Below the pieces are notes generated by a model that made no database searches, was not told the origin of the DNA, and saw only the letters and a program-made list of their open reading frames with translations. From IMG/VR virus record IMGVR_UViG_3300044732_003010, positions 24,082 through 88,081 of that record: a stretch of DNA of 64,000 bases; one strand, 5' to 3'. Positions 57,532-61,151 of the stretch are shown one piece after another. Source of the stretch: a virus. Both the position numbers and the translations under genes were made by a program. How positions within the stretch are numbered: the first letter of the stretch is position 1; every line of letters begins with the position of its first letter.

Positions 57532-59235
57532 ATGAAAGAAGGTCGATCCATAAAAGCCATGCTAGTCAAGAAAACTATTGCGGACATAAAACTTAACCTT
57601 AATGCCACTCAGCGAACCTATATTGATCGCTGGATGGACGAGCTTAAAGCTGTCTGGAATTTTGGGCTAGAGCTACTGATGGAATATCAGCTTAATAAGT
57701 ATTACGACGAGCTTGAGAAAATAACAGGAAAACCAGTTAAACGGGTTAAACGTCGTTTAGCTAAAAAAACTCAATTTATTGACTCCCTAAAAAACGAAAA
57801 AGGTAAATCCCTTCCTAATCCCCTTTACACCCCTAAATATTTAACTGGCAAGCAAAAAGTTAAAATACAGATAGCTAGAGAAAAAAGACAAAAAGCAGGT
57901 TACTCTTATCCTGTCCATATCCCTATTCAACGGCGGTTAAAATCTGATAATTATTTTGGGTTATGTGGCTGTATTACAAAAGAAAAATGTCCAGAACTAT
58001 GCAAGGACATCCCTATGGCTTTTGTCCAAGGGGTTTTAAAAAAGCTTGCTGATTCCTGGAAAGCTTACACCAAACTCGATAAAAAGAATTTAGACAGAAA
58101 ACTTCCTAGATTTAAAAGAAAAGAAGATAAAATTAAATCTCTTTATTCTGAGATCAGCAATTGCGCTGTTAGAAAAGGGGATAAAATATCTATAGGTAGC
58201 TGTGGCAAAACATTAGGCGATTTAAAGATTGTCAACAATACTTTAGATATTCGGTGGGGTGACAGAAAAGCCTCTACCGTATCAATTATCAAATACCCAT
58301 CGGGATATTATCTAAGTCTATTTGGTGAATTTGAAGTAGATGATCTACCTGATTCCGATAAAGCGATCGGTATTGACGTAGGACTAGAATATATAATTAG
58401 TACCAGCGACGGCCAACAAATTGACCCGCCCAAATACTATAGAAAACAGCAAAAAAGACTAGCAAAACTGCAAAGAAAAACCGCTAGACAGTATAAAGCA
58501 GGGGAAAATAAAGACGGCAAAAATCTCGCTAAAACTCGTGCTAAAGTTGCCAAAACTCACGAAAAAATAGCAAGACAACGCAAAGGATTTAATCATGCCC
58601 TAAGTACCGATATTGCTAGAAATCATGGCGCTGTAGCCGTAGAAGACCTCAACTTAAAGAATTTAATGCGACGACCTAAACCGAAAAAAAGAGAAGACGG
58701 TAAAGGCTACGAACGCAATAACGCGAAAGCCAAAGGGGGATTAAATAAATCCTTTGCTGATGCTAGTTTAGGACAATTAACTGGTTTTCTTGAAACGAAA
58801 ATGAAAACTCCCAACCGAGAGTTTATCAAAGTTCAACCAGCCTATACTAGCCAAGATTGTCCTCGCTGTGGCAATCGTGTTAAAAAAAGTTTATCAACCC
58901 GCACCCATAAATGTTTAGAGTGTGGATGTACTTTACCCAGAGATGTGGCCGCCGCAATCAACATCTTAGGGAAAGCAGACTTCGTAAGAAGCTACCCGGC
59001 TTGTACCGGGGAAGTTAAGCCTCTGAAGGATTTCGATAAGGAATCAGCGCAGGAGGAATTACTTAGCAAGTCCAGCCGATTGTTACTCGGCGAAGAAACC
59101 CTCGAAACCTTACTGGTTTTGACCTCCGAGCCAGTGACACCCAAGAAAAAAACAAGGAAAAGGTCGATCCACTCGCAACCCGCGCAAACAGTCAACGCAG
59201 GCTATACGCAGCTTACACTCTGGGAGACTGGGTAA
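57532..59235 (+). CDS. TnpB-like/Cas12 (type V-U-like) RNA-guided nuclease
   Basis: 567 residues (or 558 from ATG 57559). RuvC-I GIDVGLEY with Asp282, RuvC-II VAVEDLNLKNL with Glu371, a four-Cys zinc finger (CPRCG at 443-447; CLECGC at 461-466) and RuvC-III PRDVAAAINIL with Asp471: all catalytic residues present. The N-terminal ~200 residues are basic and helical (guide-RNA and DNA binding). Its length is that of small type V-U effectors, several of which occur in cyanobacteria. A four-unit array starts on its stop codon; no transposase TnpA or IS end is visible. The CCCGG/CCGGG hairpin at about 58997-59010 recalls tnpB 3' ends overlapping omega RNA. Confidence 0.85.
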   Translation: MKEGRSIKAMLVKKTIADIKLNLNATQRTYIDRWMDELKAVWNFGLELLMEYQLNKYYDELEKITGKPVKRVKRRLAKKTQFIDSLKNEKGKSLPNPLYTPKYLTGKQKVKIQIAREKRQKAGYSYPVHIPIQRRLKSDNYFGLCGCITKEKCPELCKDIPMAFVQGVLKKLADSWKAYTKLDKKNLDRKLPRFKRKEDKIKSLYSEISNCAVRKGDKISIGSCGKTLGDLKIVNNTLDIRWGDRKASTVSIIKYPSGYYLSLFGEFEVDDLPDSDKAIGIDVGLEYIISTSDGQQIDPPKYYRKQQKRLAKLQRKTARQYKAGENKDGKNLAKTRAKVAKTHEKIARQRKGFNHALSTDIARNHGAVAVEDLNLKNLMRRPKPKKREDGKGYERNNAKAKGGLNKSFADASLGQLTGFLETKMKTPNREFIKVQPAYTSQDCPRCGNRVKKSLSTRTHKCLECGCTLPRDVAAAINILGKADFVRSYPACTGEVKPLKDFDKESAQEELLSKSSRLLLGEETLETLLVLTSEPVTPKKKTRKRSIHSQPAQTVNAGYTQLTLWETG

Positions 59236-59482
59236 CAATCGGCTTGACTTGTTAAGTAGATTGCAAGTTGCCAATTCAGATAGGGCGATAGGTCGTTGCC
59301 ACGTAACAATCGGCTTGACTTGTTAAGTAGATTGCAAGTCCCACTGAGAAGTGATTCAATGTCAATCGATTTCATAGTAACAATCGGCTTGACTTGTTAA
59401 GTAGATTGCAAGGAACCGCTAAAGTGTCGCTGTCAGTCGGTTTTAGGTAACAATCGGCTTGACTTGTTAAGTAGATTGCAAG
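59232..59482 (+). CRISPR. Four-repeat CRISPR array
   Basis: Four identical 36-nt repeats at 59232-59267, 59303-59338, 59377-59412 and 59447-59482, starting GTAACAATCGG and ending GATTGCAAG, with CAATC/GATTG and ACTT/AAGT pairing inside. Spacers: 59268-59302 (35), 59339-59376 (38), 59413-59446 (34). The first repeat contains the effector's TAA (59233-59235). No cas1/cas2 in the window. Confidence 0.88.
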
Positions 59483-59525
59483 TATGAACCAAGTGACACA
59501 GAACCCACTACAAAAGAACTTCAAG
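59483..59525 (+). CRISPR. Terminal spacer matching a nearby phage gene
   Basis: The 43 bases after the fourth repeat match 60308-60350 at 39 positions, differing at positions 4, 29, 40 and 42. Homology begins exactly at the repeat edge and ends before the degenerate repeat at 59526. The protospacer is in the coding strand of the small 60251 gene, and in both places it reads as the same protein segment (PSDTEPT.KEL). Confidence 0.75.
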
Positions 59526-59630
59526 CAATTAAGCTTAAGCCTTATTAGGGATTGAAACATCTACTCCTTTGTGGGATAAATCCCACCGGGCCACAGAAAC
59601 AATTAAGCTTAAGCCTTACTAAGATTAAAC
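59526..59630 (+). CRISPR. Pair of degenerate host-type CRISPR repeats
   Basis: CAATTAAGCTTAAGCC...TTATTAGGGATTGAAAC (59526-59558) and a shorter copy ending CTAAGATTAAAC (59600-59630) flank a 41-nt segment containing GTGGGAT/ATCCCAC. The first matches the widespread cyanobacterial repeat ending TATTAGGGATTGAAAC, unlike the 36-nt array upstream. It may be a remnant of a second mini-array or a copied single repeat. Confidence 0.6.
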
Positions 59631-59655
59631 TAAATATTAAACCCGAAAAAAAACA

Positions 59656-59943
59656 ATGAATCAAACACAACTAGATAAAAAGATTAGTCAATTTTTAAGG
59701 AAAAAATTAACCAAAGCGGAACTAAAAGAAATGGAAATAAAACCACGTTCTTTAATCTTAACAATACGCAATTTTGTCGAGAGGTATCTACTTATCATTT
59801 TAGATAGTATTTTTGTTGATGTCCCTCGTGGATGGGATAACTTTTTTGAAAGTTTTCGTTTTTGGCAAAAGCTAATACTTAAAAGAAATAAATCTCTGCT
59901 AGTAATTTATTTCTGGGAAACTATTAATAATTATAAAGAATAA
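59656..59943 (+). CDS. Unknown 95-aa basic protein
   Basis: QTQLDKKISQFLRKKLTKAE, LILTIRNFVERYLLIILDSI (a hydrophobic helix), then WDNFFESFRFWQKLILKR. Basic and amphipathic. It lies just after the degenerate repeats. No family is recognised. Confidence 0.4.
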   Translation: MNQTQLDKKISQFLRKKLTKAELKEMEIKPRSLILTIRNFVERYLLIILDSIFVDVPRGWDNFFESFRFWQKLILKRNKSLLVIYFWETINNYKE

Positions 59944-59946
59944 ATA

Positions 59947-60273
59947 ATGAATCACGAAATTTATCTTATTGGAATACCAACTTTATTGCTAGGATTTCTC
60001 TTGGGAACATGGTTAGCCTATTTCTCGTGGGCTGACACTCGAAACAAAAAACTTGGTATAGACTTTAAATACCGGTACAAAAAGCCGATTAGTGCTAAGG
60101 AATTTGCTATAGAGAATTACATCTCTTTAAAACAATCTAAGCAATTCCTTGACAATAAACTTTTAGAGTTTGGGGGAATAGTAGTTTCCCAAAATGGTGA
60201 CAGTGAATATCATTTTGATATATCAGGATTTCTTATTGAAGAACAAGGCAATGGAAAAATACACTTTGACTAA
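59947..60273 (+). CDS. Membrane-anchored small protein
   Basis: 108 residues. An N-terminal membrane span (YLIGIPTLLLGFLLGTWLAY) and a charged cytoplasmic or periplasmic domain. No family is recognised. It overlaps the 60251 gene by 23 bases and is probably cotranscribed. Confidence 0.45.
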   Translation: MNHEIYLIGIPTLLLGFLLGTWLAYFSWADTRNKKLGIDFKYRYKKPISAKEFAIENYISLKQSKQFLDNKLLEFGGIVVSQNGDSEYHFDISGFLIEEQGNGKIHFD

Positions 60274-60442
60274 AATAGAACAAGATGGGAGTGCCAAAAC
60301 TTTCATCTATCAACCAAGTGACACAGAACCCACTAAAAAAGAACTTAAGGATAAATTAATAGAAATCTTAATGAAAATCAAAACACTGACATCGGAAAAA
60401 GTAAATCTAATTTATTTTTTTATCAAAGTTATAGACAAATAA
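60251..60442 (+). CDS. Small protein whose homologue is spacer-targeted
   Basis: 63 residues from ATG 60251 (MEKYTLTKIEQDGSAKTFIY). Residues 20-33 (YQPSDTEPTKKELK) correspond to the terminal spacer at 59483. Helical C-terminus ending in a hydrophobic segment. No family is recognised. Its interest lies in being the match of the CRISPR spacer. Confidence 0.45.
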   Translation: MEKYTLTKIEQDGSAKTFIYQPSDTEPTKKELKDKLIEILMKIKTLTSEKVNLIYFFIKVIDK

Positions 60443-60472
60443 CTTTAATTCTGATAGGATAAATTTAAACAA

Positions 60473-60555
60473 GGATTGGTGGCCGAGTAGTCGAAGGCGA
60501 CAGACTGTAAATCTGTAGATTTAATTCCACGCTGGTGCAAATCCAGCCCAACCCA
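60473..60555 (+). tRNA. tRNA-Tyr (GUA)
   Basis: Cloverleaf with a long variable arm typical of class II tRNAs: acceptor GGATTGG/CCAACCC (one A-C mismatch at 3:70), anticodon stem ACAGA/TCTGT with GTA at 60507-60509, T stem GCTGG/CCAGC. The D arm TGGCCGAGTAGTCGAAGGC fits tRNA-Tyr. It lies near the right end of the island. No CCA encoded. Confidence 0.85.
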
Positions 60556-60571
60556 CTTAAAATCAAACATA

Positions 60572-60600
60572 TTGACAAAATCAAAGACTTGACCTATGAT
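60572..60600 (+). promoter_or_regulatory. Promoter of the HigA-like gene
   Basis: TTGACA (60572-60577), 17-bp spacer, TATGAT (60595-60600). It overlaps ATG 60596, which is therefore not the start. Confidence 0.65.
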
Positions 60601-61039: not shown

Positions 61040-61044
61040 GTCAA

Positions 61045-61117
61045 GGGTTGATGGCCGAGCGGTTAAGGCAACGAACTCATAATTCGTCTTAGGTAGGTTC
61101 GATTCCTACTCAACCTA
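61045..61117 (+). tRNA. tRNA with CAU anticodon (Met or Ile2)
   Basis: 73 nt: acceptor GGGTTGA/TCAACCT (one G-T), D arm GGCCGAGCGGTTAAGGC, anticodon stem ACGAA/TTCGT with CAT at 61078-61080, variable CTTAG, T arm GTAGG/CCTAC. The D arm is of a Leu/Ser-like type. Together with 20754-20826 it is the second CAU tRNA in the window; one may read AUA after C34 modification. Confidence 0.8.
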
Positions 61118-61151
61118 TTAGAATAGAGAAAATACTATCTTTTAAAAAGCC

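Follow-up and report, generated by a model that had tools for sequence, protein, structure and literature searches.

Virus-borne CRISPR arrays that target kin are already known from archaea. The Sulfolobus viruses SPV1 and SPV2 carry mini-CRISPR arrays in which some spacers target the sister virus and others a plasmid; their self copies bear point mutations or deletions, and the targets lie near the array, a nearness that was called unexplained (PMC6858448). The cyanophage vB_AphaS-CL131 carries a type V-U2 system with one weak target, for which no tracrRNA was found (PMC6293099). In Microcystis aeruginosa, the PAM of the type I-D system is 5'-GTH (PMC7648086).

SPV1/SPV2 are the nearest precedent for the phage locus analyzed here, which has spacers against related viruses and plasmids, a changed self copy, and a target close to the array. 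The SPV arrays comprise one or two spacers with host-type repeats and have no effector of their own, whereas the Microcystis phages bring their own Cas12, hold up to 14 spacers per array and show fused array-target products. Like CL131, the locus has a cyanophage V-U2 effector next to an array of 36-nt repeats, with no further cas genes nearby; unlike CL131, it offers many targets, a PAM and, within the effector gene, a strong anti-repeat. The phage role of V-U2 effectors has been open since CL131 was described in 2018, and the locus supplies PAMs, targets and a tracr candidate for such an effector. Both a substrate (a spacer plus a near-identical gene) and its likely products (fused arrays) are present in sister phages, and together they give a testable origin for the closeness of array and target.

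Sequences compared

The whole stretch analyzed, hereafter the window, is 64,000 nt long and corresponds to positions 24,082-88,081 of the viral record IMGVR_UViG_3300044732_003010. It was compared with 37 viral loci carrying the same effector and with 15 contigs carrying the core. At this locus related phages have one of two V-U2 alleles: A, as in the window, or B (633 aa; L042 and L044). Sets based on the repeats contained 37 viral stretches with the A repeat and 19 with the B repeat. The spacers compared were 87 of A type and 84 of B type; targets were accepted at up to 25% mismatches, and shuffled spacers served as control. All the evidence is sequence comparison on metagenomic contigs, some of them fragmentary.

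Organization of the locus

The elements of the locus are as follows.

57532-59235, + strand: type V-U2 Cas12 effector, 567 aa, predicted TnpB-like RuvC nuclease (PADLOC, Pfam, structures)
59057-59087, - strand: anti-repeat, candidate part of a tracrRNA, inside the 3' end of the cas12 ORF
59232-59267, + strand: repeat 1, exact 36-nt repeat, overlapping the cas12 stop codon
59268-59302, + strand: spacer S1; a close variant, S040, has its target on a Microcystis plasmid (4 mismatches)
59303-59338, + strand: repeat 2, exact 36-nt repeat
59339-59376, + strand: spacer S2, no target found
59377-59412, + strand: repeat 3, exact 36-nt repeat
59413-59446, + strand: spacer S3, of a plasmid target family, with 7/34 mismatches to plasmid L133
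59447-59482, + strand: repeat 4, exact 36-nt repeat
59483-59521, + strand: spacer S4, matching the 60251 gene at 37/39 positions
59522-59558, + strand: sister-type (B) repeat, exact over 36 nt (59523-59558), matching arrays in L042 and others
59559-59595, + strand: spacer S5, no target found
about 59596-59629, + strand: decayed B-type end repeat
60251-60442, + strand: small gene, 63 aa, no assigned function, holding the S4 self-protospacer
60308-60346, + strand: S4 self-protospacer, 5' flank ATC

PADLOC assigned the effector to Cas12u2 (E 1.5e-125, best among 17 families), Pfam recognized OrfB_IS605 and a Cas12f1-like TNB domain, and the closest solved structures were TnpB, Cas12p, Cas12f and LaTranC. 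The RuvC catalytic residues are kept: in the alignment, the D, E and D motifs of a TnpB-type nuclease have their counterparts in IGIDVG, AVEDLN and LPRDVAAA. As in V-U2 systems, an array with spacers matching foreign DNA adjoins the effector. The anti-repeat scored 47 in local alignment against the reverse complement of the repeat, compared to at most 27 in 100 shuffles, and was also matched by BLAST; no B-type anti-repeat scored above chance. Cas1 was not found in the window's own record, nor Cas2 in five records, all of which may be incomplete. Among genome contigs, a pattern scan returned no Cas12u2 relative, and many TnpB-like proteins are present on Microcystis chromosomes.

Since the first repeat overlaps the cas12 stop codon, the array has no leader. 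S4 is 39-40 nt long, most other spacers measuring 31-44 nt, and has complete repeats on both sides. Variants of S3 (S034 and S036) are present in other phages. Two other assemblies have an identical structure at 59232-60450, and since one of them differs in other parts of its genome, an assembly artefact is unlikely. No Pfam match was obtained for a longer ORF in the frame of the 60251 gene. Two tRNA-like genes, at 60447-60591 and 61043-61118, flank the small-gene region; between the former and the tRNA-Tyr region of Microcystis phage LMM01 the identity is 88%.

The S4 segment and its alleles

The preliminary description of the window had reported a 39/43 match between the array and the 60251 gene, reading as the same protein segment in both places and starting at the repeat edge. 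These observations were all confirmed: 59483-59525 matches 60308-60350 with mismatches only at positions 4, 29, 40 and 42; both copies share the frame (YEPSDTEPTTKEL and YQPSDTEPTKKEL); and the repeat at 59447-59482 ends exactly where the homology begins. A BLAST of the array region against its own genome gave E = 5.6e-12 for the pair. S4 reaches 37/40 in the window, while the other window spacers have at best 20-23 matches of 34-38. S4 had been taken for the terminal spacer, which does not hold, as it is followed by the exact sister-type repeat and then by the decayed one. The spacer is thus 39-40 nt long, mismatches 40 and 42 fall at or inside this repeat, and the spacer proper matches at 37/39.

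The gene is intact in four sibling contigs (L014, L033, L034 and L035), where it matches S4 at 38/39 behind an ATT or ATC PAM; only position 29 differs, and the match is perfect over 28 nt. The base at position 29 is unique to the window lineage, and no contig of the viral collection has an exact 39/39 match outside this array. The proposed origin from a relative with another allele is therefore upheld as far as sibling alleles at 38/39 go, but no phage of that collection carries the exact sequence. Under either of the main readings discussed below, the S4 segment derives from a sibling's allele of this gene and occupies the position of a guide.

Position 4 lies in the seed of Cas12 effectors. 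Here the window's own gene copy has a C that mismatches S4, as had been proposed to protect the carrier. The same C is found in L006, L042 and L044, phages without S4, and so represents standing variation. The mismatch is real, but it is a common natural allele, and an escape mutation at position 4 was rejected on these grounds.

Targets and PAMs

Small Microcystis plasmids are matched by 38 of the 87 A spacers and by 26 of the 84 B spacers, compared to none of the shuffled spacers in either case. The target plasmids L133, L134 and L135 encode an integrase and replication-type proteins; several mismatches are seen because these plasmids are relatives and not the exact sources. L133 had no near match in the plasmid collection. 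The integrase of the three is a tyrosine integrase, and they are the main targets of both array types; they might be satellites or competitors of the phages.

The A-type PAM is 5'-WTN, with T at -2 in 29 and A/T at -3 in 30 of the 38 plasmid protospacers; the B-type PAM is 5'-GTN. A conserved 5' PAM, suggested as a check on the S4 match, was thus found: the S4 target is flanked by ATC and its sibling targets by ATC or ATT, which is the PAM of S4's own array type.

No spacer target was found among isolated phages. Spacers matching phages are few among the A and B spacers compared (S4, S074, B015 and B066). S074 belongs to L025 (G007), an unrelated siphovirus which has the same Cas12 module and no other DNA similarity to the window, and it matches the tape measure gene of the window phage type at 37/37. 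The B-type L042 and L125 carry spacers against sibling phages, one of them directed at the cas12/tracr region; B066 matches this region in A-type phages. The spacer in the L125 array against the A-type cas12/tracr region (window 59028-59064) has 2 mismatches; its target is flanked by GTC or GTT in the majority of A-type phages and by GCT in the window lineage and L026. These spacers against sibling and unrelated phages make inter-phage warfare, one of the roles first proposed for S4, a credible setting. As expected in interviral conflict, the carrier's own locus is mutated (seed position 4) or, in the fused relatives described below, deleted (5' half of the gene).

Fused relatives

In five relatives (L008, L018, L019, L026 and L045) nothing separates the last repeat from the gene, whose sequence sets in at the first base of S4. 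At three further array ends the junction is equally precise and lies at other downstream points; the flanks of these three were never found as spacers in the viral arrays compared. At the intact sites of all five kinds of array end a T is present at -2, with a chance probability of 0.002, or 0.008 without the common GAAAC end; this test covers five junctions only, and the GAAAC end is open to another reading. The effector-gene tree is mostly unresolved and fits one or several origins of the fused end.

The haplotypes of these fused genes are informative. Over 2,625 nt the fused gene of L026 departs from the resident gene of L006 at a single base, position 4, which is the G of S4. That of L018/L019 is identical over 664 nt to the resident gene of L020 except at positions 11 and 13, which carry S4's bases, and 173; in the 5,000 nt upstream of the array, L019 and L020 show no difference. 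S4-type alleles are thus limited to the first ~50 nt in two backgrounds, the rest being the resident haplotype. A short S4-type tract beside the repeat is what an exchange of the 39-nt spacer with the protospacer predicts, and suggests that such an exchange took place. The same tract is also predicted if a cut at the protospacer is repaired from a fused donor.

Homology past the repeat border, which the preliminary description would have taken as a sign of a degraded gene duplication, does occur in these five relatives, but their haplotypes suggest spacer exchange over plain duplication. The latter was rejected because repeats delimit the homology and its start coincides with a PAM-like edge. 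A clean TnpB-style insertion at a TAM was rejected as well, since the 5' half of the gene was not found beside the module in the fused loci.

Interpretation of S4

We consider, with a probability of about two in three, that S4 is a spacer in working format of a phage-borne type V-U2 array, that it can exchange with the resident gene, and that the window is the substrate that has not recombined. If the array is transcribed, the crRNA of S4, carrying a sibling allele, would match the siblings over 28 nt behind a WTN PAM, and would be mispaired with the copy in the carrier at position 4 of the seed. S4 and the resident gene might recombine, possibly after Cas12 cuts the gene, because they match at 37/39 positions, have the same orientation and are separated by 0.8 kb. 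Such a recombination would delete the DNA between them and leave the array fused to the gene at the 5' edge of the protospacer, a fusion that would remove the PAM. The mechanism of the exchange, like any benefit to the phage, we infer from the comparison of sequences.

The main competing explanation, which we find rather unlikely, is that S4 is the remnant of a fused array end like those of L008, L018 and L026. A later crossover with a B-type phage would have replaced everything past ~39 nt with the tail of a B array and brought in an intact gene with another allele; the spacer look of S4 would be accidental, although it could still act as a guide. The fused state does exist in five contigs, the right side of the window is 97.8% identical over 3.5 kb to the B-type L044, and the gene in the window has the allele that the B-type phages L042/L044 carry. 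In L023 and L030, A and B arrays are joined, and the spacers at these joints are partial (20 and 15 nt). Moreover, no array was found in which own-type repeats stand on both sides of S4 (its right-hand repeat in the window is of the sister type), which speaks for this explanation. It would however make a coincidence of the spacer-like length and of the complete repeats on both sides. Nor does it account, except with repair directed to the protospacer, for the fact that in two backgrounds the S4 alleles end within ~50 nt.

Much less probable is a homing behaviour, in which the last repeat and the flanking gene fragment would guide against the siblings' uninterrupted gene and repair would copy the Cas12 module with its array, in the manner of mobile nuclease genes. 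Whatever follows the last repeat is placed as an in-register guide, the fused joints stand at PAM-like sites, and the exchange tracts end near the expected Cas12 cut. Nevertheless, in none of the fused loci does the module adjoin an intact left end that contains the gene's 5' half, and in L127 the A system, set into the 59947 gene, replaces 160 bp instead of forming a clean insertion. We give least credence of all to S4 as a self-regulatory guide repressing the carrier's own gene through imperfect pairing. There is a self match with a PAM-like flank, and the V-U2 effector of CL131 was proposed to be regulatory (PMC6293099), but an active TnpB-type nuclease has RuvC residues that align with those of the effector, the relatives show no conservation of S4, and in several of them the 5' half of the gene has been lost. 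Self-regulation, which had been put forward beside warfare, thus found no support.

Extended to other phages, the spacer-exchange reading of S4 leads to a tentative and rather doubtful model, in which arrays would be re-addressed by spacer-protospacer exchange: fused to the target gene at the PAM edge, they would escape self-cutting through loss of the PAM and gain a last guide matching the intact gene of siblings, and the module could home.

Sister system and host

The B repeats resemble Microcystis chromosomal repeats, in particular those of putative type I-D arrays. In host arrays with such repeats, 73 of 452 spacers match the window phages within 25% mismatches, with a GTN flank, compared to none after shuffling; the host is therefore most likely Microcystis, a bloom-forming cyanobacterium. 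In 12 Microcystis genomes no repeat of the window's own (A) type was detected. The 5'-GTN flank of the B-type phage spacers is also that of the host spacers and corresponds to the published type I-D PAM, 5'-GTH (PMC7648086); it is plausible that B-type phages take up spacers via the host machinery; unlike type I-D, the phage effector is a single Cas12. The B system at L042:5629-9446, with the second V-U2 allele, comprises up to 26 repeats and has spacers with this GTN flank. L127:4020-7669 (minus strand) holds a B system and, 2 kb on, an A system in one phage. Finally, a Microcystis contig (L151) carries a V-U2-like effector with an array that starts with B-type repeats and continues with host-type repeats.
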